DNA of 49,194 bases from an uncultured Ruminiclostridium sp. (GTDB lineage: Bacteria; Bacillota; Clostridia; Oscillospirales; Ruminococcaceae). Shown one piece after another: positions 1-37,336 of the stretch. Position 1 is the first letter of the stretch. Every line of letters begins with the position of its first letter. Location of the stretch: NCBI GenBank assembly GCA_947624435.1, contig CANQKE010000015.1, positions 1-49,194 of the forward strand. The letters are read 5' to 3'. A program made the position numbers and the translations under genes. The notes beneath the pieces were generated by a model that ran no database searches, was not told the DNA's origin, and saw only the letters and a program-made list of their open reading frames with translations.

Positions 1-207
1 AAGGGCATAGACAAAAAGACCGGCAAAGTCTTAGTGGAGGTATCACCCGAATATTTCCGCCCCACCGACGTGGTGACGCTGCTGGGAGATCCCGCCAAGG
101 CAAAAGCTACCCTCGGTTGGAATCCTACGAAAACTTCTTTCGAGGAGCTTGTGAGACTGATGACGGAGAATGATATTAAGGCGGTTGCTGATGGAAAGTC
201 TGTTTAA
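1..207 (+). CDS. gmd: GDP-mannose 4,6-dehydratase, C-terminal end (partial)
   Basis: Frame 1 is open from the window edge and encodes the last 68 residues of a GDP-mannose 4,6-dehydratase. The recognisable end of the family is present: VEVSPEYFRPTDV followed by LLGDPAKAKATLGWNP and an ELVRLM helix. The enzyme oxidises and dehydrates GDP-D-mannose to GDP-4-keto-6-deoxy-D-mannose in the cytoplasm. That product is the substrate of both ColD and the Fcl-type enzymes encoded just downstream, so this is the entry step of the locus. The stop at 205-207 overlaps the start of the next gene by 17 nt, which argues for translational coupling. The N-terminal catalytic domain lies outside the window. Confidence 0.93.
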   Translation, partial: KGIDKKTGKVLVEVSPEYFRPTDVVTLLGDPAKAKATLGWNPTKTSFEELVRLMTENDIKAVADGKSV

Positions 208-574
208 GATATTAAAGCCTGTTTTCACAAATTCCGACGAACGCGGAAGTATGGTTCAGTTGTTCCAGGAAAATTGCAATCAAGCCAATGTTCTGCGCTG
301 TAAAAAAGGCGCACTGCGCGGTAACCACTATCATAAACTCAACACGGAATCCTTTTATGTCGTTGAGGGAGAGGTGGAGGTAACGCTAAAAACCCTGGAG
401 CAAAAACCTGTTGTGGAAACAAAGACATTTTCAAAGGGCGATTTTTTCGCAATACCGCCTAATATCAATCATGAATTATTATTCAAGGAGGATACCATAA
501 TGACGGCTTTTTACGATAAAGGCGTAATATTGCCTGACAAGACAACTGATATATATATATATATATATATATAA
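191..574 (+). CDS. Cupin-fold sugar-nucleotide/polysaccharide biosynthesis protein
   Basis: A 127-residue cupin of the type found as the C-terminal domain of CapF and in WxcM/FdtA-like sugar isomerases. The cupin motif GNHYHKLNTESFYVVEGEV supplies metal or substrate residues, and FAIPPNINHEL forms the second motif. I chose ATG 191 because AAGGCGG (178-184) lies just ahead of it; an upstream in-frame start at 170 lacks a good site. It overlaps gmd by 17 nt. A role in isomerising or epimerising a GDP-keto-sugar is inferred from fold and context. The conserved domain ends near residue 117, and the last codons are an (AT) repeat encoding alternating Ile-Tyr before the stop. One AT unit more or fewer extends the protein to 146 residues, ending at the colD start codon. 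Confidence 0.8.
   Translation: MESLFKILKPVFTNSDERGSMVQLFQENCNQANVLRCKKGALRGNHYHKLNTESFYVVEGEVEVTLKTLEQKPVVETKTFSKGDFFAIPPNINHELLFKEDTIMTAFYDKGVILPDKTTDIYIYIYI
549..573 (+). repeat. (AT)12 dinucleotide tract at the 3' end of the cupin gene
   Basis: Twelve AT units plus one A. The tract ends inside the stop codon of the cupin gene. A gain or loss of one unit is a frameshift. With 12 units translation stops at 572-574. With 13 units the frame runs to TAA at 627-629, directly before the colD ATG at 630. With 11 units it runs to TGA at 631-633, which overlaps that ATG. Such tracts are classical slippage sites; variability here is inferred, not observed. Confidence 0.95.
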
Positions 575-576
575 GA

Positions 577-629
577 TTAACAAGTATTGCGTTTTCTTTC
601 CCTTTTTTCACGGAAAGGAGGCGCGTTAA
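577..629 (+). promoter_or_regulatory. Hairpin that buries the colD ribosome-binding site
   Basis: Bases 589-601 pair with 612-624 in a continuous 13-bp stem (three G.U pairs) around a 10-nt loop. An outer TTAAC (577-581) pairs with GTTAA (625-629). The whole Shine-Dalgarno region GGAAAGGAGG (612-621) is in the 3' arm, just before ATG 630. A ribosome stopping at 574 never reaches the stem; one in either alternative cupin frame passes through it. Pairing was found by eye and folding energy was not computed. Confidence 0.65.
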
Positions 630-1790
630 ATGAAGTACAGACTTAGCGATGACACATGGGACAACAATGAATTCGATGCGATAATAAGCGTTCTGAGGTC
701 CGGACGGTTTTCAATGGGGGAACGTGTAGCGGAGTTTGAAAAGGCATTCGCGGAAAAATTCGGCGTAAAATATGCGCTTATGGTAAGCTCAGGCTCGGCG
801 GCTAATTTGCTTGCGGTCGCAGGACTGATATATTCCGGCAGACTTAAAAAGGGCGATGAAGTGATAGTTCCCGCCGTTTCCTGGAGTACTACATATTTTC
901 CGCTGTACCAGATGGGACTTAAACTCAGATTTGTAGATATCGACAAGGATACGCTTAATATAGATATCGCAAAGCTTCAAGAAGCGATAACTTCTCAGAC
1001 GCGGCTTGTTTGCCTTGTAAATCTTCTGGGCAATCCCAATGATTTCGATGCGGTGAAGAAGATATGTGACGACAAAAACATCATCATAATGGAAGACAAC
1101 TGCGAGTCGCTCGGCGCGGAATATCACGGCAGGAAAGCCGGAACGTTCGGCTTGGTTGGGACTTATTCAACTTTTTATTCGCATCACCTTTGCACGATGG
1201 AGGGCGGAGTTGTCGTTACCGACGACGAGGAGCTGTATCACTATATGCTGTGTATAAGGGCTCACGGCTGGACAAGAAATCTTCCCAAGGACAGCAAAAT
1301 TTACAGTAAAAGCGAAAACGCTTTCTATGAGAGCTTTAACTTTATTGTGCCGGGATTTAATCTGCGCCCGCTTGAAATGGAAGGCGCTGCCGGAACTCAG
1401 CAGCTTAAAAAGATGGACGGCATAATTGCACAGCGCAGAGAGAACGCCCGCTATTTCAAGGAGAAAATGCAGGATATTCCCGACGTGCGTACTCAAAAGG
1501 AAACGGAAAGCAGCTCGTGGTTCGGCTTTGCGGTCATTCTTGAAGGAAAGAATATCGGTAAGCGCGACGAGGTCGTAAAGCAGCTTGCCGAAAAGGAGAT
1601 AGAGGTGCGTCCCATCGTGGCGGGAAACTTTACCCGCAACAAGGTCATCGAATATATGGAGCATACCGTGAGCGGTGAACTTACCGCCGCGGATGATATT
1701 CACGACAACGGATTTTTCATAGGAAATCACAGTAAGAATAATTTCGCCGAGATAGATTACTTTGTGCAGGTCCTTAAATCCGTACTGTAA
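630..1790 (+). CDS. colD: GDP-4-keto-6-deoxymannose 3-dehydrase (ColD)
   Basis: A 386-residue DegT/DnrJ/EryC1/StrS-family PLP enzyme. Ordinary members carry the Schiff-base lysine in an SxxxxK...GEGG segment; here it reads STFYSHHLCTMEGG (180-193), with His185 in the lysine position. That substitution is the known hallmark of the 3-deoxygenating enzymes ColD (GDP-colitose) and the CDP-sugar E1/RfbH. The adjoining gmd points to ColD, which removes the C3 hydroxyl of GDP-4-keto-6-deoxymannose. Other family marks are SSGSAANLLA (53-62) and the acidic MEDNCESLGA segment (154-163). The start ATG 630 has AAGGAGG 8 nt upstream, but this site is inside a hairpin. The next gene follows after 16 nt with an exposed site. 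No ferredoxin-reductase partner is seen, which again favours ColD over E1. Confidence 0.9.
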   Translation: MKYRLSDDTWDNNEFDAIISVLRSGRFSMGERVAEFEKAFAEKFGVKYALMVSSGSAANLLAVAGLIYSGRLKKGDEVIVPAVSWSTTYFPLYQMGLKLRFVDIDKDTLNIDIAKLQEAITSQTRLVCLVNLLGNPNDFDAVKKICDDKNIIIMEDNCESLGAEYHGRKAGTFGLVGTYSTFYSHHLCTMEGGVVVTDDEELYHYMLCIRAHGWTRNLPKDSKIYSKSENAFYESFNFIVPGFNLRPLEMEGAAGTQQLKKMDGIIAQRRENARYFKEKMQDIPDVRTQKETESSSWFGFAVILEGKNIGKRDEVVKQLAEKEIEVRPIVAGNFTRNKVIEYMEHTVSGELTAADDIHDNGFFIGNHSKNNFAEIDYFVQVLKSVL

Positions 1791-1806
1791 AAACAAGGAG
1801 AAAAGC

Positions 1807-2808
1807 ATGGAAAAGAATGCTAAGATCTACGTTGCCGGTCATACCGGAATGGTAGGGACAGCGCTTGTGCGTAATTTGACCTCCAGAGGATACACAAATA
1901 TAATAGGCAGGACTTTTGAGGAATTAGACCTTACAAGACAGTCTGAAGTTGAAGAGTTTTTCGACCGTGAGAGGCCTGAATACGTTTTTCTGGCAGCCGC
2001 AAGGGTAGGAGGGATAGGAGCAAATATAAAATCGCCCGCTGAATTTCTTATGGATAATCTTAAAATGCAAAATAATATATTTACGGCTGCTTTAACTCAA
2101 AAAGTGAAAAAGCTGATTTTCATAGGCTCTGCCTGCGTATATCCGGAATCGGCGGAGCAGCCCATAAGTGAAGAATCTTTATTGACCGGTAAAATGGAAG
2201 AGCACCACGAAGGGTATTCTTTAGCTAAGATTTGCGGAATTAAAGCGTGCGAATATCTTCACAAGGAGTACGGCGCGGAATATATGAGTGTAATTCCTTG
2301 TAATTTGTACGGATATAACGACAACTTTGATGTTTTACGCTCACATATAATTCCCGGCATAATAAGGCGTTGTTATGAAGCAAAGATAAACGGCAACGAT
2401 AAGTTGACGGTATGGGGCAGCGGAAATGCTCGCAGGGAGTTGTTGTTTGCCGATGATTTAGCAGATGCTTGTCTGTTTTTGCTAGATAATGGTGCAGGAG
2501 GAGAATATTACAATATAGGATCCGGCAGCGATTATTCCATACTTGAGATAACACAAATGATAAGGAAAATAGTTGGCTATGACGGAGAGATAATAACCGA
2601 CAGTTCCAAACCGGAGGGTATGATGAAAAGATTGATGAACTCTTCAAAAATAAATAAGCTTGGATGGAAACCGAAAGTCGGGCTTGAAGAAGGATTAAGA
2701 CTTACATATAGGTGGTTTTTGAATAATATCGCTCCCGATATATGCGGGGGGGGGGTACAGCTTAACTGTATCGTTTGTTCTTACGCCTTTATTTGCATGG
2801 AGGCGTAA
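1807..2808 (+). CDS. fcl: GDP-fucose/colitose synthase paralogue 1 (Fcl-1)
   Basis: A 333-residue extended SDR of the GDP-4-keto-6-deoxymannose 3,5-epimerase/4-reductase (GMER, ColC) family. The Rossmann motif is GHTGMVG (11-17). The catalytic residues are Ser108, Tyr137 and Lys141 (YSLAK), and both residues used for epimerisation in the E. coli enzyme have counterparts, Cys110 and His180. It should therefore be competent for epimerisation and reduction; the product (fucose or colitose series) cannot be told from sequence. ATG 1807 has AAGGAG upstream; longer versions overlap colD without reason. The conserved core ends at YRWFLNN; beyond it a G10 tract leads into an atypical Cys-rich tail ending at 2808. 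It shares identical DNA stretches with Fcl-2 and Fcl-4. Confidence 0.88.
   Translation: MEKNAKIYVAGHTGMVGTALVRNLTSRGYTNIIGRTFEELDLTRQSEVEEFFDRERPEYVFLAAARVGGIGANIKSPAEFLMDNLKMQNNIFTAALTQKVKKLIFIGSACVYPESAEQPISEESLLTGKMEEHHEGYSLAKICGIKACEYLHKEYGAEYMSVIPCNLYGYNDNFDVLRSHIIPGIIRRCYEAKINGNDKLTVWGSGNARRELLFADDLADACLFLLDNGAGGEYYNIGSGSDYSILEITQMIRKIVGYDGEIITDSSKPEGMMKRLMNSSKINKLGWKPKVGLEEGLRLTYRWFLNNIAPDICGGGVQLNCIVCSYAFICMEA
2746..2755 (+). repeat. G10 homopolymer at the 3' end of fcl-1
   Basis: Ten consecutive G residues, about ten codons after the conserved WFLNN end of the domain. At G10 the frame ends in TAA at 2806-2808, abutting the fcl-2 ATG at 2809. At G9 it ends in TGA at 2810-2812, overlapping that ATG. 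At G11 (or G8) it stops at 2763-2765, upstream of the hairpin at 2781. Proteins would be 333, 334 and 319 residues. Confidence 0.95.
2781..2808 (+). promoter_or_regulatory. Hairpin that buries the fcl-2 ribosome-binding site
   Basis: TTACGCCT (2781-2788) is a perfect inverted repeat of AGGCGTAA (2801-2808). Two further T.G pairs (2789-2790 with 2799-2800) extend the stem to 10 bp around an 8-nt loop. The Shine-Dalgarno GGAGG (2799-2803) lies wholly in the 3' arm, and the arm ends on the base before the fcl-2 ATG. The G10 and G9 frames read through the stem; the G11 frame stops 16 nt before it. Confidence 0.7.
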
Positions 2809-3765
2809 ATGATGAACAAAAATTCAAAGATCTACGTTGCCGGTCATACCGGAATGGTAGGCTCTGCTATAGTCAGAGAGCTTAAAAGGCAGGGATATGA
2901 AAACATTGTCGGCAGAACGCACGGTGAGCTTGACCTTACGGATAAAGCGGCGACAGAGGCGTTTTTTGCCTCGGAAAAGCCGGAATATGTTTTTCTGGCA
3001 GCCGCAAGGGTAGGAGGTATCAAAGCAAACTCTACATATCCCGTTGAATTCGGGCTTACAAATATGTATATTGCCGCGAACGTTTTGCAGGCGGCGCATA
3101 ACAGCGGCGTGAAAAAGCTGCTTTATCTCGGAAGCGCCTGCTGCTATCCAAATGATGCGACTATGCCGATAAAGGAGAAAGACCTGCTTAATGGTAATCC
3201 AGAAGTTACCAACGAGGCTTACGCGCTTGCAAAGAATTTCGGGGTGCGGCTTTGCGGATATTTCAGAAAAGAATATGGCGACGATTTTATCGCGGTAACT
3301 CCCGCTAATTGCTATGGCGAGGGCGACAGCTTCGACCCTCAGAATTCACACGTTATTCCCGCTCTGATACGGAAGTATCACGAAGCAAAGCTGAATAATA
3401 CGCCGAAAATAGAGCTTTGGGGCAGCGGTAAGGCGATGAGAGAATTCATATATGTGGACGACCTTGCGAGCGGCTGCGTATATGCGATGAACAATTATTC
3501 CGATTACGAACATGTCAATGTAGGAACGGGGACGGAAATATCGATACTTGACCTTGCAAAGCTGATAAGCGAGGTCGTGGGCTATGAAGGCGAAATAGTC
3601 ACCGACCCGTCAAAACCGGACGGAAAGATGAGGAACTTTATCGATTCCTCCAAATTGCTCGGTTTAGGCTGGAAGCCTCAGTATACCATGAAAACAGGCG
3701 TTGAAAAGCTGTTTGAGTGGTATTTGGAGAATGTACATTCCTCGGAGGTTGAAAATCATGGATAA
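2809..3765 (+). CDS. fcl: GDP-fucose/colitose synthase paralogue 2 (Fcl-2)
   Basis: A 318-residue GMER/ColC-family SDR. The cofactor motif is GHTGMVG, the catalytic residues are Ser109, Tyr138 and Lys142 (YALAK), and both epimerase residues are kept as Cys111 and His181 in the NSHVIPAL segment, the closest of the four to the E. coli pattern. It should carry out 3,5-epimerisation and 4-reduction of a GDP-4-keto-6-deoxyhexose. The ATG at 2809 abuts the fcl-1 stop; a second ATG at 2812 is equally possible. Its ribosome site is in a hairpin, so expression probably depends on ribosomes arriving from fcl-1. The C-terminus is short and has no G tract. The last 8 nt overlap fcl-3. Confidence 0.88.
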   Translation: MMNKNSKIYVAGHTGMVGSAIVRELKRQGYENIVGRTHGELDLTDKAATEAFFASEKPEYVFLAAARVGGIKANSTYPVEFGLTNMYIAANVLQAAHNSGVKKLLYLGSACCYPNDATMPIKEKDLLNGNPEVTNEAYALAKNFGVRLCGYFRKEYGDDFIAVTPANCYGEGDSFDPQNSHVIPALIRKYHEAKLNNTPKIELWGSGKAMREFIYVDDLASGCVYAMNNYSDYEHVNVGTGTEISILDLAKLISEVVGYEGEIVTDPSKPDGKMRNFIDSSKLLGLGWKPQYTMKTGVEKLFEWYLENVHSSEVENHG

Positions 3766-4717
3766 AGATAAGAAAATTTATGTAGCCGGTCATGCCGGAA
3801 TGGTAGGCTCTGCCCTCATGAGAAAACTGAAAAGCATTGGCTGCAAAAATATCATAAGCAAAGACATAAACGAGCTTGACCTGACGCGTCAGTCGGATGT
3901 GGAAGAATTTTTTGAAAAGGAAAAACCCGATATAGTTTTTCTGGTGGCGGCAAATGTAGGTGGGGTTTCAGACAATCGTCAGTATCCCGCCGAGCATCTC
4001 AGAGATAACGCCTATATCGAATTGAATGTTATAAACAGCGCTTTTAATAACGGTTGTAAGCAGCTGCTATTCATTTCTTCAAATTGCATTTATCCTAAAA
4101 ACGCTCCGTTACCTCTTACAGAGGATAGTTTTATGAACGGCAAACTTGATCCGGACTGGGAGGGATACGGAATATCCAAAATCGTCGGTGCAAAGCTTTG
4201 TGAATATTACTCAAAGCAATATGGCGTTCAGTATATTTCAGCCGTTCCTTGCAATTTATACGGAATAAATGATTGTTACGACGAAAAGAAATCAAGAGTA
4301 GTTGCTGCGCTGATAAGACGCTTTCATGAAGCAAAAACAAACAATGCCAAAAGCGTTGAAATATGGGGCGACGGCACGGCTTTAAGAGAATTTTTGTTTG
4401 CCGATGATCTTGCGGATGCTTGTGTGCTTTTAATGGATAAGTATCACGAAAGTGATATCATAAACGTTTCACCCGGGATAGAACATTCAATAAAGGACAT
4501 AGCTTTTATGATACAGGAAGCGGTCGGCTATGACGGGGAAATAGTGTTCAACACCGACAAACCCGGCGGAATACATAGAAAAAATATGTCCTGTGAAAAG
4601 CTCAATAAACTCGGATGGGCAGCCAAAACCGATATGCTTACAGGCATAAATACCGCATACAAATGGTTCTGTGAAAATATCTCCTCCAATTTTGCGGGGG
4701 GGGGTAATACCCTATAA
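3758..4717 (+). CDS. fcl: GMER-family SDR paralogue 3 lacking the epimerase histidine (Fcl-3)
   Basis: A 319-residue SDR with GHAGMVG (11-17), Ser108, Cys110 and the YGISK pair Tyr137/Lys141. The histidine equivalent to E. coli His179 is replaced: the segment reads KSRVVAALIRR, with Arg180 in its place. In the E. coli enzyme that histidine is the acid used with the cysteine in C3/C5 epimerisation, so this copy may reduce without epimerising, or epimerise at one carbon only. The start ATG 3758 lies inside fcl-2 with CGGAGG about 10 nt upstream and no hairpin. After the conserved YKWFCEN end, a G9 tract leads to a stop at 4715-4717. Sequence is visibly A+T-richer than the flanking genes. Confidence 0.85.
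   Translation: MDKDKKIYVAGHAGMVGSALMRKLKSIGCKNIISKDINELDLTRQSDVEEFFEKEKPDIVFLVAANVGGVSDNRQYPAEHLRDNAYIELNVINSAFNNGCKQLLFISSNCIYPKNAPLPLTEDSFMNGKLDPDWEGYGISKIVGAKLCEYYSKQYGVQYISAVPCNLYGINDCYDEKKSRVVAALIRRFHEAKTNNAKSVEIWGDGTALREFLFADDLADACVLLMDKYHESDIINVSPGIEHSIKDIAFMIQEAVGYDGEIVFNTDKPGGIHRKNMSCEKLNKLGWAAKTDMLTGINTAYKWFCENISSNFAGGGNTL
4696..4704 (+). repeat. G9 homopolymer at the 3' end of fcl-3
   Basis: Nine consecutive G residues after the conserved end of the domain. At G9 translation stops at 4715-4717 and at G10 at 4705-4707, both upstream of the hairpin that begins at 4728. At G8 (or G11) the frame stays open to TAA at 4788-4790, passing through the hairpin and overlapping the fcl-4 ATG (4783) by 8 nt. 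Proteins would be 319, 316 and 343 residues. Confidence 0.95.
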
Positions 4718-4727
4718 CATTATTTAC

Positions 4728-4782
4728 TATTGCATATACCTTGTTACAAATATTAAATTTAGATTTAACGAGGTGTGCAATA
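4728..4782 (+). promoter_or_regulatory. Hairpin that buries the fcl-4 ribosome-binding site
   Basis: TATTGCA (4728-4734) pairs with TGCAATA (4776-4782), and ACCTTGTTA (4738-4746) pairs with TAACGAGGT (4766-4774, one G.U). The two helices (16 bp in all) are separated by a small internal loop, with a 19-nt apical loop. The Shine-Dalgarno GAGGTG (4770-4775) is inside, and the 3' arm ends on the base before ATG 4783. This 65-nt gap between fcl-3 and fcl-4 holds nothing else. Confidence 0.7.
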
Positions 4783-5742
4783 ATGAATAAATTTGATAAA
4801 AATGCAAAGATTTATATTTCCGGTCATGCCGGAATGGTCGGGTCTGCGCTAGTTCGAGGATTAAAGGCAAAAGGGTATAATAACCTTATCGGCAAAACAA
4901 TAGAAGAGCTTGACCTTACCAGACAATACGACGTTGAGAAATTTTTTGAAGCAGAAAAGCCGGACTATGTTTTTCTTGCTGCCGCTAAGGTTGGTGGGAT
5001 AGGTGCGACGGTAAAATATCCGGTCGAGTTTCTCATGGATAATCTCGCAATTCAGAGTAATGTTTTGACCTGTTCGTTTAAGTACGGTGTTAAAAAATTA
5101 ATTTTTATAAGTTCTGCTTGCGTTTATCCGCGTGAGGCAAAGCAGCCTATTTCGGAGGAATCGCTGCTTACGGGTATGCTGGAGCCGACTAACGAAGGCT
5201 ATGCTTTGGCGAAGATAGCGGGTCTTAAAGCATGTGAATACTACCGCCGTGAATATGGACTGAGTTATTTCAGTGCAATACCTTGTAATTTGTACGGATA
5301 TAACGACAGCTTTAATGTAAATCGTTCAAATCTTATTCCCGCGATGATAAGAAAATTTCATTCCGCTAAGGTCAACGGATTGAAGAATGTCGTTGTATGG
5401 GGGACGGGAAGAGCATACAGAGAGCTGCTGTTTGCCGATGATATGGCCGACGCGTGTATATATCTTATGGAAAATTATTCCGGCGATGGATTTGTCAATA
5501 TAGGATATGGCAAAGATTTTACTATATTGCAGATAGCTGAGATGGTCAAAAAGGTCGTCGGTTATGAAGGTGAGATCGTTACCGACCCGACCAAACCTGA
5601 GGGAATGTTCAGAAAAATCGTTGATTCCTCCAAGATAACTAATCTTGGCTGGAAGCCGAAAACCAACATTGAGGACGGATTGAAACTGACCTACAAATGG
5701 TTTTTGGAAAACGTCAAGGACAAGGACGAGCTTGTCACCTAA
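4783..5742 (+). CDS. fcl: GMER-family SDR paralogue 4 lacking the epimerase histidine (Fcl-4)
   Basis: A 319-residue SDR with GHAGMVG (14-20), Ser111, Cys113 and Tyr140/Lys144 (YALAK). As in Fcl-3 the epimerase histidine is missing; here the segment reads NRSNLIPAM, with Asn183 in that position. It is otherwise very close to Fcl-1, sharing a 28-nt identical DNA stretch (5281-5308 with 2296-2323). I chose ATG 4783, with GAGGTG 8 nt upstream; a TTG at 4741 in frame would put the hairpin inside the gene and has no ribosome site. It has a normal C-terminus, WFLENVKDKDELVT, and no tract. A role as 4-ketoreductase giving a different stereoisomer from Fcl-1/2 is inference. Confidence 0.86.
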   Translation: MNKFDKNAKIYISGHAGMVGSALVRGLKAKGYNNLIGKTIEELDLTRQYDVEKFFEAEKPDYVFLAAAKVGGIGATVKYPVEFLMDNLAIQSNVLTCSFKYGVKKLIFISSACVYPREAKQPISEESLLTGMLEPTNEGYALAKIAGLKACEYYRREYGLSYFSAIPCNLYGYNDSFNVNRSNLIPAMIRKFHSAKVNGLKNVVVWGTGRAYRELLFADDMADACIYLMENYSGDGFVNIGYGKDFTILQIAEMVKKVVGYEGEIVTDPTKPEGMFRKIVDSSKITNLGWKPKTNIEDGLKLTYKWFLENVKDKDELVT

Positions 5743-5758
5743 AGAAAAGGAAGAAAAA

Positions 5759-7048
5759 ATGCAGATAGTTCTACTCTCTGGCGGCTCGGGCAAGCGCTTA
5801 TGGCCGCTGTCAAACGAGGTGCGCTCTAAGCAGTTTCTGAAGCTCATCAAAAACGATAACGGCTGTACCGATTCAATGGTAAGGCGCGTATACGGGCAGA
5901 TATCGGCCGCTATTCCGGATGCGGATATATCGGTCACTACCAGCGCAACACAGGTGGAGGCGATAAAGAATCAGCTAGGCTCTAAGGTGTCTGTTATTGT
6001 AGAGCCTCAGCGCCGCAACACCTTTCCCGCTATCGCGCTGGCCTCATCTCATTTATATTACGAAAGGCGCTGCGAACCGGACGAAACGGTTATAGTCCTG
6101 CCGGTAGACCCTTATGTGGAAAATGATTTTTTCGCCGCATTGAATAAAATCGACGCCGCGGTACAGCAAGGCACGGCGGATATTGTGCTGATGGGAGTAA
6201 AACCCACCTACCCATCCGAAAAATACGGCTACATAATCCCCGAAAATACCGATATTGAGCCTTTTCCCGTTTCGCAGTTCAAGGAAAAGCCGGACAAGCA
6301 TGCCGCACAGCAGTTTATAGATATGGGCGGGCTTTGGAACTGCGGCGTGTTCGCGTTTAAGCTGTCGTATATCATGGATATTGTACAGCGCTATGTGCCG
6401 TCGACCGGCTTTGCCGATGTGCTGAATAATTATGCTTTGTTTGAGAAAAACAGCTTTGACTATGTAGTGCTGGAAAAAGCGGACAGCGTGGCGGTAGTTC
6501 CGTATGACGGAGAATGGAAAGACCTTGGTACATGGAACACTATCACCGAGGTTATGGACCCTCTTTACGGCTTTGCGATAGCAAGCGAGGACTGCACCAA
6601 TACTCACGTCATAAATGAGCTTGAAATACCGATAGTGGTAATGGGCGCGCATGATATGATAGTGGCGGCAGGTCCTGACGGTATACTTGTCGCCGATAAG
6701 GAGCAAAGCTCATACATAAAGAAATACGTTGAGAATATGGACATTCGCCCGATGTATGAGGAACGCGAGTGGGGCGATTACACCGTGCTTAATGTTTCTG
6801 TAGATGAAAAAGGGAACAAGGCGGTCACCAAAAAGAAATTCGTAAAGCAGGGCAGTGAGATAAAGGAAAAGACGCATGCCGCAAACCGCACCGTCTGGAC
6901 AGTGCTGAGCGGAAAAGCGGTCATAAAGATAAACGGCAGAAATCACGACGCTTTCCCCGGCGATACCTACACGATAGATAAAGGTATAGCTCACTCGCTT
7001 ATTGCCGTGGAGGATACAACGATACTTGAAGTGCAGATAAATGTATGA
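5759..7048 (+). CDS. manC: Mannose-1-phosphate guanylyltransferase with C-terminal cupin
   Basis: A 429-residue GDP-mannose pyrophosphorylase. The N-terminal signature is LSGGSGKRLWPLS (6-18), and a later FKEKPD segment belongs to the sugar-phosphate site. It makes GDP-mannose from GTP and mannose-1-phosphate, the substrate of Gmd. The C-terminal part starts at EREWGDYTVLN and has the cupin of type II phosphomannose isomerases, but the zinc-binding HxH/R/E cluster is reduced to THAANRTVW, so isomerase activity is doubtful. It is also shorter than the usual 470 or so residues. ATG 5759 has AAAGGAAG upstream; the TTG at 5732 overlaps fcl-4 and is less likely. The last 4 nt overlap the next gene (ATGA). 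Confidence 0.92.
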   Translation: MQIVLLSGGSGKRLWPLSNEVRSKQFLKLIKNDNGCTDSMVRRVYGQISAAIPDADISVTTSATQVEAIKNQLGSKVSVIVEPQRRNTFPAIALASSHLYYERRCEPDETVIVLPVDPYVENDFFAALNKIDAAVQQGTADIVLMGVKPTYPSEKYGYIIPENTDIEPFPVSQFKEKPDKHAAQQFIDMGGLWNCGVFAFKLSYIMDIVQRYVPSTGFADVLNNYALFEKNSFDYVVLEKADSVAVVPYDGEWKDLGTWNTITEVMDPLYGFAIASEDCTNTHVINELEIPIVVMGAHDMIVAAGPDGILVADKEQSSYIKKYVENMDIRPMYEEREWGDYTVLNVSVDEKGNKAVTKKKFVKQGSEIKEKTHAANRTVWTVLSGKAVIKINGRNHDAFPGDTYTIDKGIAHSLIAVEDTTILEVQINV

Positions 7049-9588
7049 ATATGGTTAATATTTCTCTTATAGTTCCTCTTTACAATTCATCTGCCGATCT
7101 GCAGAACGTTATAAATGTTGTAAAGACGATAAAAACCCCCTTCGAGCTCCTCCTTATCAACGACGGGTCTTCCGACAACACGGCGGAGCTTTGCAGGGAA
7201 GCCGAGGGGAAATACAGCTTTGTACGCTTTTTTGACAAGCCGCACACAGGCGTTTCGGATACCCGCAACTTAGGAATAAAAAACGCAAGAGGGAAATATA
7301 TACTTTTTCTGGATGCGGATGATTCTCTTTCCGACGGCAGCGCGGACAAGCTGTATGAATTTTTCGAGGAATGCGGAGACGTTTGCGACCTTGTCACATA
7401 TCCTATCGAAACGCACTATCACGGTGTTGTACTTGCTCCGCATTTCAGATATAAATACATGACCTATTCCGGTATATACGATCTTCGCGAGCTGCCATAT
7501 ATCGGTCAGACCACAATGAACATAATGGTGCGCAACCGCTTTGAGGACAATGCTTTATTTGACGATAAGATGACCTTTTCCGAGGATCAGCGTTATTGTT
7601 ATGAGGTCACAAAGGAAAAGATGAAAATCGGATTCTGCGCCGATGCAAAATATATCTACAATCGGGCGGAAACCACTTCGTCGGGAAAAATCAGCGGAGC
7701 GTGCTATATTTTCGAGCAGTCGATGAAAATGTTTGAGGATATGTTCGGTAAAACCGATCCCGTTCCGCAGGCGTATCAGGGATTATATATAAACGATCTC
7801 GCGTGGAAGCTGCGCTCTAATATCCTTTACCCTTATCATTACAACGCCGCGCAGTTTAGCCAAGCTATGAACAGGATAAAAGCGCTGCTTAGCCGGGTGG
7901 ATAACGAGGTTATTTTGAAGCATCCGGATATAAACGCTTTCCATAAGTTTTATTGGCTGTCAATGAAGCCGCAAAACAAAGTAAGCGCATTTTATGAATC
8001 CGAACGGTTTGGGCTTAAGGATGACAGCGGAGTTATTCTTTCGGAGAAGATCGCGGAGATCGTTGTGACCAGAATAAGAGATGATAACGGTACTTTTATA
8101 TTCAGAGGCTTTGTGAAATCTTCCGCGTTTAATTTCACCGAAAAGCCGAAATTGTATGCCGAGATAAACGGTAGACGCGAGGAGCAGGCTCTTTACGATT
8201 CCGCCCATAGCTATTATCTGTGCCGGACTAAAACCCATAATTTTTATGCGTTTTGCTTTCAAGCCGATATTGAGAATTTACGGCGTTTGAGCTTTTTCAT
8301 TTCACTGAACGGGTATGAATACGGCTGCAAATATTATTTTATGCCGAAAACTCCTTTTTCGTATTACGCGCAGAGATATAAAGCGCCTATAGGTAAAAAA
8401 GTGTTGAGCTACGATACGGAAAAAAGGCAGTTTGAGCTTTCGGACGAGTCGTGCCAAAGCGTTCTTTTAGAAAACAGCAAATGCCCGCTGCCTTCGTCGG
8501 GAATGAAACGAATACGCAAAAAAGCGGCTGCTCTGCGGTATAGAACTAATATCTGCCTTTATTATGACTGCCGCGGCGTCGGCAAAGACAACGGTTGGTA
8601 CAGATTTAAGGAGGATTATTTCAAAAACGACGGAGTACGGCGGATATATATTTATGATAACGAAAAGTCAAAAAAAGATTTTTCGTTTCCGAAAGCAGAC
8701 CTGCGCGACCTTGTGCCGTTCGGCAGCAACGAGCATAAAATACTTTGCCTTTCCTGCCGGAAAATAATAACCGCTTATATAGAAGATATAAATATCTTTC
8801 CTTTTCGGTCGGAGGAGCTTTATCTTTATGCTGATTTCTTCGATTTTGAGGTTGAATATATACAGCACGGGATACTTCACGCCAGTCTTCCGTGGAAGTA
8901 CACTCCGGAAATAATAATGGCGGATAAAGTGGATATATCAACGGATTACGAGGAAAAGCTGTTCACCGAGAAATATCATTTCAGAAAAGAGGATATAATA
9001 CCTCGACTTATGCCGAGGCTTAAAATGCTTGACCGGACCGCAAAGCCGCAGAAGAAGATATTATTTGCGCCAAGCTGGCGGCAGTACCTGATAGGTCCGG
9101 ATATCAACGGAGAATGGCAGCCGCTGAACAGCTTATTTGAGTCGTCGGATTATTTTAAGAACATATCCGATTTTCTTAACGACGAAAAGCTGAACGATCT
9201 GCTGGAGCAAAATGGTTATATCCTGGATTTCAAGCTCCATCCTATTTTTGAGGTGTACCGCGATCGCTTTAAGATACGTTCCGAGCGGGTGCATATAGTG
9301 GATACGGCTTTATCGATAGAGCAATACGAGATTTTCATCACGGATTTTTCATCTTTCGCGTTTGACTTTATATATCTCGGACGAAAGGTGTTCAGCTTTA
9401 TCCCCGATGAAATGCAGTTCAGATGCGGTATGAATTCGTATAGGGAGATAGAGAGCGAACACTTGTTTAACAAGATCAAATGTACGCAAGATATCGATGG
9501 ATTATTCAGCCAAAGTGAAGCTGAATACAATTTAGATAATATGTCTAACGAGTCCGCCGGTCAGATCCTATGGGTATCTCCGAATTAG
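7045..9588 (+). CDS. Bifunctional GT2 glycosyltransferase / CDP-glycerol glycerophosphotransferase-like protein
   Basis: An 847-residue fusion. Residues 1-230 are a GT-A family 2 transferase: ISLIVPLYN at the start, LINDGSSD (37-44) and the metal site FLDADDS (88-94). The middle part is not recognised. From about 590 to 810 the protein matches the TagB/TagF fold: QHG near 605, ILFAPSWRQ near 670, KLHP near 730 and ITDFSSFAFDF near 762. TagF-like enzymes transfer glycerol- or ribitol-phosphate from a CDP-activated donor, so the protein may add both a sugar and a polyol-phosphate to a cell-surface polymer. No membrane segment is seen. It overlaps manC by 4 nt and is the last gene of the operon. 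The order GT then TagF domain is common in capsule and teichoic-acid clusters. Confidence 0.82.
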   Translation: MNMVNISLIVPLYNSSADLQNVINVVKTIKTPFELLLINDGSSDNTAELCREAEGKYSFVRFFDKPHTGVSDTRNLGIKNARGKYILFLDADDSLSDGSADKLYEFFEECGDVCDLVTYPIETHYHGVVLAPHFRYKYMTYSGIYDLRELPYIGQTTMNIMVRNRFEDNALFDDKMTFSEDQRYCYEVTKEKMKIGFCADAKYIYNRAETTSSGKISGACYIFEQSMKMFEDMFGKTDPVPQAYQGLYINDLAWKLRSNILYPYHYNAAQFSQAMNRIKALLSRVDNEVILKHPDINAFHKFYWLSMKPQNKVSAFYESERFGLKDDSGVILSEKIAEIVVTRIRDDNGTFIFRGFVKSSAFNFTEKPKLYAEINGRREEQALYDSAHSYYLCRTKTHNFYAFCFQADIENLRRLSFFISLNGYEYGCKYYFMPKTPFSYYAQRYKAPIGKKVLSYDTEKRQFELSDESCQSVLLENSKCPLPSSGMKRIRKKAAALRYRTNICLYYDCRGVGKDNGWYRFKEDYFKNDGVRRIYIYDNEKSKKDFSFPKADLRDLVPFGSNEHKILCLSCRKIITAYIEDINIFPFRSEELYLYADFFDFEVEYIQHGILHASLPWKYTPEIIMADKVDISTDYEEKLFTEKYHFRKEDIIPRLMPRLKMLDRTAKPQKKILFAPSWRQYLIGPDINGEWQPLNSLFESSDYFKNISDFLNDEKLNDLLEQNGYILDFKLHPIFEVYRDRFKIRSERVHIVDTALSIEQYEIFITDFSSFAFDFIYLGRKVFSFIPDEMQFRCGMNSYREIESEHLFNKIKCTQDIDGLFSQSEAEYNLDNMSNESAGQILWVSPN

Positions 9589-9623
9589 ATTTAAGTTTTC
9601 GTTGCTATCTTTACAAAACCAAC

Positions 9624-34738: not shown

Positions 34739-37336
34739 ATGCCTGAAAAGACTGAAAAGCTGACTCCCATGATGCAGCAGTATTTTGACATCAAAAAGGA
34801 TTACAGCGATTATATTTTGTTTTATCGGCTCGGCGATTTTTACGAGATGTTCGACAAGGACGCGTTAGTAGCGTCTAAAGAGCTTGAGCTTGCTATGACC
34901 AAAAGAGCCGGAGTTCCTATGTGCGGCGTGCCGCACCACAGCGCGGAGGGCTATATAAAGAAGCTTATCGACAGAGGCTTTAAGGTCGCGGTATGCGAGC
35001 AGACTGTCGACCCCGCGCTGGCAAAAGGGCTGGTAGACCGCGATATAGTGCGGCTGGTCAGCGCCGGAACGGTGATAGAGGCGTCCATGCTCGAAGAGGG
35101 CGTTAATAATTACATTTCCTGCGTATATTTCGGAGAAAGCGGCGTGGGAATGGTATTCGCCGACATATCCACCGGAGAGGTGCACGCCTTTGAAAAGCCG
35201 AACGGTAAAAAACAGTACGACGAGATAATAAACGAGTTTTCAAGATATACACCCGCCGAGCTGCTGTTCAATTACGGTATGCTTACGGCAAAGCCGGTGT
35301 ACGATTTTATCCGCTCGCGTTTTACGAAGTGCGCGGCGGAGCAGCTTGACGACGAGCGCTTTGCCCCGAACGAGTCGGCGATAACCGCACAGTTTTCCGG
35401 CAGCATAGAGGATATAGGGCTTGCCGACAAGGAAAACGCGGTGCGTGCGTTATCGGCGCTGCTGGATTATCTTACCAAGGCTCAGCGCAGCGGCGCAAAG
35501 CGGTTTGTAAAGCTGAACGTGCATAGCGGTCAGGAGTATATGGAGCTTGGCTTTAACGCGCGGAGAAATCTTGAACTTACCCAGACCATGCGCAGCGGGG
35601 AAAAGCGCGGCTCATTGCTTTGGGTACTGGACAAGACCGTCACCGGTATGGGACGGCGCAGGCTAAAGCAGTGCGTAGAGCGTCCGCTTACCGACGCGGC
35701 GAGGATAATTCGCAGACATGACGCGGTACAGGCGCTGGTGGAAAATTCATCGGTGCTGTACGATATCCGCGACGATCTTGACAAGGTGTACGACCTTGAA
35801 CGGCTGATGACCCGCATTATATACCGCAGCGCAAGCCCGAAAGATATATACGCGCTGGGCGTTACCTGCCGGGCGATACCTCAGCTTAAAGAGGATCTTT
35901 CCCGATTGGACGCGCCGCTGATAAAAAGCCTTAATAAAAGGATAAGCGACCTTACCGATATCGCAAATCTTACCGAAAACGCGATATCCGACGACCCGCC
36001 CGCGCTGACTAAGGACGGCGGCTATATAAAAGCCGGATTCAACGAAGAGCTTGACAGGCTGCGCAAGATAACCGGCGGCGGCAAGGATATGCTGGACGAG
36101 ATAGAGCAGCGGGAAAGAGAGCAGACCGGCATAAAGAACCTGCGGGTGGGCTTTAACCGCGTATTCGGCTATTACATAGAGGTATCAAAGGGCAATATTT
36201 CCATGGTGCCGGACAGGTATGTTCGCCGTCAGACCTTAGCCAACGGAGAGCGCTACATCACCGACGAGCTTAAAAAGATAGAAAGCGAGATATTGGGCGC
36301 TAACGACAAGATACTTGCGCTGGAGGCGGAGATATTCTCCCAGGTGCTGGATTTTATCGCGAAGTATCTTGACGCGGTGCAGCTTACCGCCGAATCCGTC
36401 GCCGATACCGACGTATTGTGCAGCTACGCGGTGGTATCGATAGAAAACAACTACACCCGTCCGGTGATAGCCAACACCGGAGTGATAGAGATAAAGGACG
36501 GACGGCATCCGGTAGTGGAAAAGACCGTCAACGAAATTCTGTTTACCCCAAACGACGTTTATCTTGACTGCGGGGCAAACCGCCTGATGATAATTACCGG
36601 GCCCAACATGTCGGGTAAATCCACCTTTATGCGTCAGGTAGCGGTGATAACGCTTATGGCGCAAATAGGCTGCTTTGTTCCCGCCTCGTATGCGAGGATA
36701 GGGATAGTGGACAGGATATTCACCCGCGTCGGGGCGAGCGACGACCTTTCCTCCGGACAGTCCACCTTTATGGTAGAGATGAACGAGGTGGCGGAGATAC
36801 TTGCGAACGCTACCAAAAACAGCCTTGTAATACTTGACGAGATAGGGCGCGGCACTTCGACCTTCGATGGTATTTCTATCGCGAAGTCCGTGGCGGAATA
36901 CATTTCCTCCAAGGCGATAGGCTGCAAGACGATGTTCGCCACTCACTATCACGAGCTTATCTCGATGGAGAGGGAGCAGGACGGCGTAAGAAATTTCAGC
37001 GTTCGGGTAAAGCAGAAAGGCGACGATATACAATTTCTGCATAAGATAGCCGAGGGAGGGACCGACAACAGCTACGGCATACAGGTGGCGAAGCTCGCCG
37101 GACTTCCGAAAAAGGTGCTGGACAGGGCGAAAGAGATACTCGCCCAGATGGAGCAGGCTCCCCGCGTACAGCGCGAGCTGGAGCTTCGCAGCAGCGAAGA
37201 GGAGCAGACCCAGATAGATTTTGAGGCTACCGCAAGGCATAACGTCATAAACGAGATAAAAGGGCTAGACCTTGACGATATGACCCCCAGAGAGGCATAC
37301 GCAAAGCTTGAAGAGCTGAAAAAATCATTGATATAG
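34739..37336 (+). CDS. mutS: DNA mismatch repair protein MutS
   Basis: A full-length 865-residue MutS. The mismatch-contact FYE motif (GDFYEMF, Phe34 and Glu36) is intact. The ATPase has GPNMSGKST near 620, the Walker B VILDEIGRGTSTFDG and ATHYHEL. The C-terminal helix-turn-helix and clamp region are complete. ATG 34739 follows GACGGAGG. It recognises mispairs and short slippage loops; with mutL beside it the organism appears repair-proficient, relevant to the stability of the tracts in the glycan locus. Confidence 0.97.
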   Translation: MPEKTEKLTPMMQQYFDIKKDYSDYILFYRLGDFYEMFDKDALVASKELELAMTKRAGVPMCGVPHHSAEGYIKKLIDRGFKVAVCEQTVDPALAKGLVDRDIVRLVSAGTVIEASMLEEGVNNYISCVYFGESGVGMVFADISTGEVHAFEKPNGKKQYDEIINEFSRYTPAELLFNYGMLTAKPVYDFIRSRFTKCAAEQLDDERFAPNESAITAQFSGSIEDIGLADKENAVRALSALLDYLTKAQRSGAKRFVKLNVHSGQEYMELGFNARRNLELTQTMRSGEKRGSLLWVLDKTVTGMGRRRLKQCVERPLTDAARIIRRHDAVQALVENSSVLYDIRDDLDKVYDLERLMTRIIYRSASPKDIYALGVTCRAIPQLKEDLSRLDAPLIKSLNKRISDLTDIANLTENAISDDPPALTKDGGYIKAGFNEELDRLRKITGGGKDMLDEIEQREREQTGIKNLRVGFNRVFGYYIEVSKGNISMVPDRYVRRQTLANGERYITDELKKIESEILGANDKILALEAEIFSQVLDFIAKYLDAVQLTAESVADTDVLCSYAVVSIENNYTRPVIANTGVIEIKDGRHPVVEKTVNEILFTPNDVYLDCGANRLMIITGPNMSGKSTFMRQVAVITLMAQIGCFVPASYARIGIVDRIFTRVGASDDLSSGQSTFMVEMNEVAEILANATKNSLVILDEIGRGTSTFDGISIAKSVAEYISSKAIGCKTMFATHYHELISMEREQDGVRNFSVRVKQKGDDIQFLHKIAEGGTDNSYGIQVAKLAGLPKKVLDRAKEILAQMEQAPRVQRELELRSSEEEQTQIDFEATARHNVINEIKGLDLDDMTPREAYAKLEELKKSLI

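Follow-up and report, generated by a model that had tools for sequence, protein, structure and literature searches.

Why should some of the longest simple repeats of a bacterial genome sit at the very ends of intact genes, just ahead of the next start codon? The question is raised by an operon near the beginning of a 49,194-nucleotide stretch of DNA from an uncultured Ruminiclostridium sp. (positions 1-49,194 of contig CANQKE010000015.1, assembly GCA_947624435.1), the whole of which we call the window. Genes for sugar-nucleotide enzymes follow one another there in the order gmd (its end), cupin, colD, fcl-1, fcl-2, fcl-3, fcl-4, manC and a glycosyltransferase gene, and an (AT)12, a G10 and a G9 tract close the cupin gene, fcl-1 and fcl-3, respectively. 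Reading frames and predicted folds make it very probable that the length of a tract at the 3' end of one intact gene switches translation of the next gene. Such a device would be slipped-strand phase variation acting through translational coupling, and a new variant of slipped-strand phase variation. We refer to a tract junction of this kind as a gate, to the gene that ends in the tract as its carrier and to the following gene as the gated gene.

Tracts, reading frames and stems of the operon

All features of the operon lie on the forward strand. The (AT)12 tract (549-572) closes the cupin gene (191-574; PF14667, Cap5F C-terminal-like; start codon at 191, not 194), and no other AT run of nine or more units occurs in the 2,351,078-base assembly. 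The G10 tract (2746-2755) at the end of the GDP-fucose-synthase-like gene fcl-1 (1807-2808) is likewise the sole G10 of the assembly, and the G9 tract (4696-4704) ends fcl-3 (3758-4717). G runs of nine or more bases are found at six places in the assembly, two of them in the window, and runs of eight or more at 13. Unusually long repeats of this sort in or near a gene are a mark of slipped-strand phase-variable loci. The cupin domain ends at about residue 111 and the Fcl model at residues 308 (fcl-1) and 309 (fcl-3), which places the tracts past the conserved domains at the 3' ends of these three genes, as the original prediction had stated. Judged from the reading frames, the carrier protein retains its conserved domain in every frame.

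We computed the stop codon of each carrier in all three frames at its tract and counted the distance from the stop to the next ATG; a change in tract length shifts the reading frame at a point where expression could be affected. With the 12 units of the assembly, the cupin frame stops 55 nucleotides before colD (TAA 572-574), with 10 or 13 units it stops at 0 (TAA 627-629), and with 11 or 14 units at -4 (TGA 631-633). For fcl-1, the assembled G10 makes the stop abut fcl-2 (0) and G9 moves it to -4, while G8 or G11 leads to an early stop (2763-2765) 43 nucleotides before fcl-2. The assembled G9 of fcl-3 gives a stop 65 nucleotides before fcl-4 (TAA 4715-4717) and G7 or G10 one at 75 nucleotides, and with G8 or G11 the stop falls at -8 (4788-4790), 8 nucleotides inside fcl-4. 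In the ON frames, the carrier's stop is at or overlaps the start of the gated gene, as translational coupling of the RNA-unfolding type requires. The states as assembled would be OFF for colD, ON for fcl-2 and OFF for fcl-4, just as originally read.

Two other uses of a tract were rejected for the window: no frame fuses neighbouring genes, and the tracts at its junctions are not promoter tracts, poly-G beside TATAAT-like boxes being seen in other genera. In five genomes of the family (G211, G333, G215, G336 and G239), poly-G9 lies immediately 5' of TATAAT-like boxes upstream of genes, perhaps reflecting promoter-spacer phase variation.

At each of the three gates, the Shine-Dalgarno (SD) sequence of the gated gene is predicted to be hidden by a stem. 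Ahead of colD (630-1790), a stem-loop at 588-625 covers GGAGG 617-621 (z-score against shuffled sequences -2.7; SD occlusion 0.997). A 12-base-pair stem at 2781-2808, ending in the coupled stop TAA 2806-2808 of the G10 frame, covers GGAGG 2799-2803 of fcl-2 (2809-3765; z -4.9; occlusion 0.998), and a stem-loop at 4728-4782 covers GAGG 4770-4773 of fcl-4 (4783-5742; z -4.8; occlusion 0.999). All three junctions thus fold far better than shuffles, whereas the five tract-free junctions do not (z +1.3 for gmd-cupin, -1.0 for colD-fcl-1, +1.2 for fcl-2-fcl-3, +0.65 for fcl-4-manC and +0.94 for manC-glycosyltransferase). The claim that buried ribosome sites would be confined to the tract junctions was therefore borne out by the predicted folds; the fcl-3 SD reaches an occlusion of 0.78, yet its fold is weak (-7.5 kcal/mol). 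In a wider comparison, SD occlusion exceeded 0.8 at 15 of 18 tract junctions, and at 10 of the 13 situated within the control regions. Of the non-tract junctions from the window and L061-L072, 5 of 78 exceeded this value.

A sharper contrast than any shuffle is provided by colD orthologues in two congeners. These are 89-90% identical and directly follow gmd, with no cupin gene and no tract ahead, and their SD occlusion is 0.257 and 0.148, compared with 0.997 in the window. The operon of one congener (G068) reads gmd-colD-fcl-manC and contains no G7, C7 or (AT)5 run, or longer, in 18 kilobases; relative to it, the window has four extra genes (cupin and three fcl) and three gates. In another congener (G064), a single gate is present, and it precedes the second of two fcl genes. 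The gates accompany the added genes.

The orthologous fcl gate has G10 (ON) in the window and G8 (OFF) in G064, with the hairpin kept, and a 90%-identical protein (P0001) has the ON-type tail, seen as protein. The check originally proposed was to ask, across strains, whether tract lengths vary while compensatory changes conserve the stems; tract length differs between these two orthologous gates, and two-sided changes are not in excess. Changes in the stems, one arm of which is the SD itself, are mainly single and pair-keeping, and altered pairs still pair in 2 of 2 cases in the fcl gate, in 3 of 3 or 4 of 7 (depending on the reference) in the gate common to L102 and L369, and in 1 of 1 in the C10 gate. 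The signal of compensatory evolution is weak.

The identity of ColD as GDP-4-keto-6-deoxymannose-3-dehydratase-like is well supported by its closest solved relatives, the best PDB match being 2gms (E. coli ColD entry; E value 8.7e-141), with ColD 3gr9 matching as well and the SHH motif aligning. The histidine of this motif presumably stands in place of the usual lysine. The four Fcl proteins score 390.9-431.8 bits against the GDP-L-fucose synthase model, under its curated cut-off of 500. Because the start of fcl-3 overlaps the end of fcl-2 by 8 nucleotides, gate 2 may affect fcl-3 and thus gate 3; the three gates proposed for the operon stand, but the eight expression states ascribed to them are an upper bound. 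An Rfam search of window positions 1-9600 returned nothing above threshold and one sub-threshold match, at 8471-8509. Parts of the operon match 25 plasmid records, of which the five listed cover 5-7%.

Slippage of the classical kind is suggested at G000:C34:5347-5354 and its flanks (L025-L027), where a G8 run splits a gene into 147 and 282 residues and G7 or G10 would give one 448-residue protein. Other poly-G/C runs of this genome lie within two hexapeptide transferases (C12 and C45) and a HAD-domain gene (C26).

Candidate gates in the same genome and beyond

On contig C13 of the same genome, a candidate gate of the same design links two ATP-grasp paralogues that lie in tandem and are 58.6% identical, with a G9 tract 55 nucleotides from the next ATG. 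Its ON stop is at -4, its OFF stops are at 45 and 52 nucleotides, and the SD occlusion is 0.94. The protein P0123, encoded on a 9,357-base contig, matches at every one of its 406 residues the product that the ATP-grasp carrier of this genome would have with G10 instead of G9. It would be a natural length variant, predicted OFF, of a gate that is predicted ON here (58,454-base contig).

Three congeners (G064, G066 and G069) yielded further gates, as did G357, G221 and G365, which represent another three genera of the family. The tract-SD-ATG pattern used for the gate search makes no demand for a hairpin. Of 84 stretches from named GTDB genomes, 80 were listed and all 80 were classified; they include gates in records named Clostridia, Lachnospiraceae, Acetatifactor, Treponema and Bacillota. 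A table compiled by hand adds 15 gates to the three of the window; from stop to tract, the carriers of these 18 span 136-454 codons, and in 14 pairs a relationship between carrier and gated gene can be detected.

We scored tract junctions by a frame rule, under which each frame's stop lies either at least 25 nucleotides before the start or at -25 to +5, with at least one stop of each kind; the SD was counted as buried at an occlusion of at least 0.7. The SD was buried in 33 of the 44 tabulated junctions, and 30 of these 33 obeyed the rule. After shuffling of the stretches from tract to SD, 4.9 ± 2.0 obeyed, with a maximum of 12 in 1000 runs. In the subset entered without hand-picking, 13 of 16 obeyed, where shuffles averaged 2.1 and never exceeded 8; counted by sequence clusters, 22 of 25 did, where shuffles averaged 3.6 and never exceeded 10. 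OFF stops were placed 3-40 nucleotides ahead of the 5' arm of the hairpin in 53 of 55 cases, and 28 of 35 ON stops lay at -4 (13), -1 (11) or 0 (4). As assembled, 18 of the rule-obeying gates are ON and 12 are OFF, a mix to be expected in assemblies if the gates switch. The sequence that follows the tract resembles TACAG-TATAA-CTGA in several gates and so provides out-of-frame stops, and Treponema gates often carry TATAG-type stops; a TACAG-specific pattern yielded no additional gate among the matches inspected.

The tabulated junctions were drawn as follows. Among the congeners, the pattern had 21 distinct sites (fcl-1 included), of which 12 were tabulated and 9 left out; four of the latter are flanked by open reading frames on both sides, and none of these four obeys the rule. 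The pattern occurred at 37 distinct places in the genera of the family by hand count, comprising two own sites, one seen earlier, 11 inspected and 23 left out. Four of the 11 inspected sites were tabulated, the other seven being without an upstream reading frame, a start in range or a strong stem. The named GTDB genomes contributed 29 tabulated junction-class sites minus three duplicates. Nine new sites in gate-bearing genomes included four with both a buried SD and the rule (L356, L359, L365 and L369), although just 52 codons precede the tract of L359, and L355 obeys the rule but has an open SD. Genomes with one gate may hold more.

A second search, with a covariance model of the SD hairpin that contains no tract, was run in 12 genomes. 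Its eight matches with an E value below 0.001 prove nothing, because all are members of the model. The 25 weaker matches listed included a known tract gate that is not a model member (G064:C32), a new site (L204) and a hairpin without a repeat (L203); most of the remainder were inspected by eye and taken as ordinary stems. At L204 (G221:C37:16304-16340), also a non-member, a (CA)9 tract lies between two tandem PF01370 genes (NAD-dependent epimerase family), 75 nucleotides from the start codon. Nine units place the stop at -4 (ON), 7 or 10 units 55 nucleotides before the start and 8 or 11 units 48 nucleotides before it, with an SD occlusion of 0.999. The hairpin search thus arrived at a tract of another type, one that no tract pattern had picked up, and the window's (AT)12 tract is joined by a second dinucleotide gate; L204 is not included in the rule counts.

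By Pfam, one set of ten gated genes comprises seven CTP_transf_3 cytidylyltransferases, one IspD-like gene, one PylC-like gene with LAL_C2 (of the ATP-grasp kind) and one epimerase, and two more gated genes are a cytidylyltransferase-like gene and a dTDP-sugar isomerase. The other set of ten holds two cytidylyltransferases, two glycosyltransferases and one each of a hexapeptide transferase, an epimerase, an ATP-grasp and an FrhB/FdhB-like gene; two, a prophage gene among them, had no Pfam match. Taken together, the ATP-grasp pair, the relatives, the gates of clostridia and Treponema, the (CA)9 gate and the 30 of 33 junctions that follow the rule support the original prediction of a translational-coupling phase switch acting on the neighbouring gene, as far as frames and predicted folds can tell.

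Several loci have features of their own. Two serial gates, at G066:C10:11785 and 12573, lie between different genes but are nearly identical in tract, in stem and in the protein end ahead of them (EQQIKRGG), as though gate and carrier 3' end had been duplicated together as one cassette. At G064:C20:1877, G357:C3, L109 and L154, an additional small stem (CAG...CTG) comes just after the tract, ahead of the SD stem. In a prophage (L149:2100-4100; JAUNQD010000023.1, minus strand), Pfam identified Prophage_tail and DUF859 genes, which are followed by four tandem small reading frames joined by three G9/G10 tracts and, after these, by a CW_7 (lysin-like) gene and a holin; the SD is buried at two of the three tract junctions. 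The small reading frames had no PHROG match (four scanned) and no Pfam match (two scanned). This array is a candidate phage tail or receptor-binding switch. Gate-like tracts, hairpins and frame patterns were also seen in two viral contigs, L272 (IMG/VR 2930187738_000002) and L221 (IMG/VR 3300018479_000107), the reading frame ahead of the L221 tract being only 16 codons long. A phage collection had no match to the L272 or L149 stretches.

Known systems and rival explanations

Among the rivals, the one that survives best, though still improbable, is that a tract merely swaps the tail of its carrier, the hairpin and the fit to the start codon being incidental. This has been proposed for Helicobacter canadensis, in which eight genes, rfbB among them, carry poly-G at the 3' end with lengths that vary in reads (Snyder et al., PMC2823697). 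Five of the eight (Table 2 of PMC2823697) have the frame signature of the present gates, in that two frames stop 0-5 residues past the tract and the third runs for 16-50 (for example 4/1/18, 17/4/2 and 2/0/16), whereas the other three lack it. The authors read a change of tail or, once, a gene fusion, and the accessible text has no occurrence of 'coupl'. The tracts of the window also lie at 3' ends, and the C-terminal tails of its carriers differ in sequence between frames. However, a swap of tails predicts neither the burial of the SD (15 of 18 junctions against 5 of 78) nor the on/off rule (30 of 33); the tails are unlike one another, and the predicted change goes beyond the tail.

Slippage at the RNA level is more doubtful. 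A polymerase or ribosome would slip on the G tract in every cell and produce a fixed coupled fraction, with no heritable switch. Polymerases and ribosomes, too, may slip on extended G runs, in which case all frames would be sampled in one cell. Against this, two gates use dinucleotide tracts, (AT)12 in the window and (CA)9 at L204, which to our knowledge are not usual runs for transcriptional slippage. Furthermore, the length of the tract in the DNA, and with it the state, is not the same in orthologous gates (G10 ON, G8 OFF), and the ATP-grasp gate is seen with both G9 and G10.

The nearest known case, the Pil1 locus of Streptococcus gallolyticus (PMC3894217), leads to a third rival, a transcriptional switch in which frame-dependent translation governs a terminator, or the access of Rho, between the genes and the SD stem is secondary. 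At Pil1, the repeat number in an upstream reading frame places the stop, and the ribosome melts a hairpin and turns on the following genes (PMC3894217). Pil1 has GCAGA repeats, a 38-residue leader peptide and a transcription terminator (PMC3894217), whereas the gates of the window have mono- or dinucleotide tracts that end whole proteins, a stem that buries the SD and an overlap of stop and start. The carriers match enzyme or cupin families with no short leader peptide, no hairpin followed by a U run was found at the SD stems, and a terminator scan, which found 11 sites against 6.6 expected, marked none of the three stems. These stems carry the SD and end at the start codon. We consider a purely transcriptional switch quite unlikely, even with a weak, small terminator-like palindrome just after the fcl-1 tract; Rho polarity could add to the effect of coupling. 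That there is no switch, only ordinary tight operon junctions with constitutive coupling and neutral tracts, is hardly credible: neighbouring prokaryotic genes often overlap as ATGA or TGATG (PMC6728339), but two of the six G9-or-longer runs and the sole long AT run of the genome are at these junctions, and the OFF frames end within a narrow zone right before the hairpin.

Other systems share parts of the proposed switch. A G-tract in the first reading frame of the Bifidobacterium breve pilus switch controls later genes, and its lengths vary in culture (PMC9187656). There, however, the tract joins two reading frames into one pilin and the later genes are thought to suffer polarity (PMC9187656), whereas no frame in the window fuses genes. 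Coupling has two principal models, of which unfolding of RNA by upstream ribosomes is one; phage f1 loses coupling when the stop is moved well upstream of the hairpin (PMC12548453). In the synthetic synTCE design in E. coli, stems of at least 6 base pairs stop leak, and stops at -1 to +5 couple best (PMC11602170). Natural coupling and synTCE thus resemble the window gates in having an SD-hiding hairpin that is opened by upstream translation, with a close or overlapping stop and start coupling best, but involve no heritable length switch; 'phase vari' does not occur in the accessible text of either source (PMC12548453, PMC11602170). By analogy, synTCE has the same design as the window gates and behaves as the mechanism would require.

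In classical slipped-strand contingency genes, such as those of Neisseria and Campylobacter, the tract usually breaks its carrier gene or sits in a promoter. They share with the present operon a slippage tract and an association with surface glycan genes. The accessible text of a review on such genes (PMC11868660) has no occurrence of 'translational coupl', and in the accessible open-access literature, outside which most subscription papers lie, we found no description of a tract in one gene that switches the next through an SD hairpin.

Several observations weigh against a switch of the neighbouring gene by tract length. Three of the 33 junctions with a buried SD break the frame rule (L134, L146 and L147), and 3 of 11 junctions with an open SD still satisfy it. 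Two-sided changes in the stems amount to two pairs against 1.4 in shuffles, which is no excess, and the fcl-1 tract is followed by the terminator-like palindrome. The G10 of P0123 is one case and may have arisen by misassembly of the homopolymer. A hairpin is absent at one tract of G064 (C20:1070), and L203 (G357:C20:5621-5648) has a strong SD-burying hairpin before an ATG with no repeat in the preceding 160 nucleotides; we regard the latter as an ungated or otherwise regulated relative of the gate stem. By eye, among the matches listed, the AT-tract pattern revealed no second AT gate in 396 family genomes. A broad pattern applied to viral contigs gave, among the matches listed, at least 22 junctions with reading frames on both sides, of which two had a buried SD and six obeyed the rule; 1 of 22 (L272) was gate-like in both respects. 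Lastly, MutS1 is encoded intact in the window (34760-37324, forward strand; 953.8 bits) and mismatch repair seems present, so that loss of MutS1 cannot account for slippage.

Proposed mechanism and reach of the switch

Weighing these points, we still favour a switch that acts on the next gene. Tracts end the carriers, and the stop of each frame is placed short of the hairpin or at the start of the following gene. The predicted hairpin would form and block free binding of the 30S subunit. In the ON frame, the carrier's ribosomes would unfold the stem and terminate at the start codon, and the neighbour would be translated by termination-reinitiation or through the exposed SD. Slipped-strand mispairing would alter tract length and maintain a population of ON and OFF cells, of which the variant of the sister ATP-grasp gate may be one natural example. 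In this operon, the switch would select which GDP-deoxysugar enzymes (ColD and the Fcl paralogues) are made, and hence which sugar enters the surface glycan.

Where gates occur in series (G066 C10, G064 C20, L109, L154 and L149), the arrangement points to expression states that are ordered and nested, an outcome that a tract within a single gene would not offer. On a broader proposal our judgement is evenly balanced: the gate may be a modular, duplicable gene-to-gene switch, general across at least Bacillota, Spirochaetota and prophage tail genes, which in series would form a relay that passes translation on until the first closed gate and yields nested enzyme sets. Part of the C-terminal phase variation of Helicobacter would then be the same device.

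If the switch operates as proposed, tools that look for a tract breaking its carrier would miss or misname such loci, as it is the neighbour that is switched and the tract itself seems to do no harm. The combination of frames and SD stem gives a sequence rule for finding more gates. Commensal clostridia and treponemes could then vary their surface sugars by choosing among sugar-nucleotide enzymes, often paralogous neighbours, and not by knockout.

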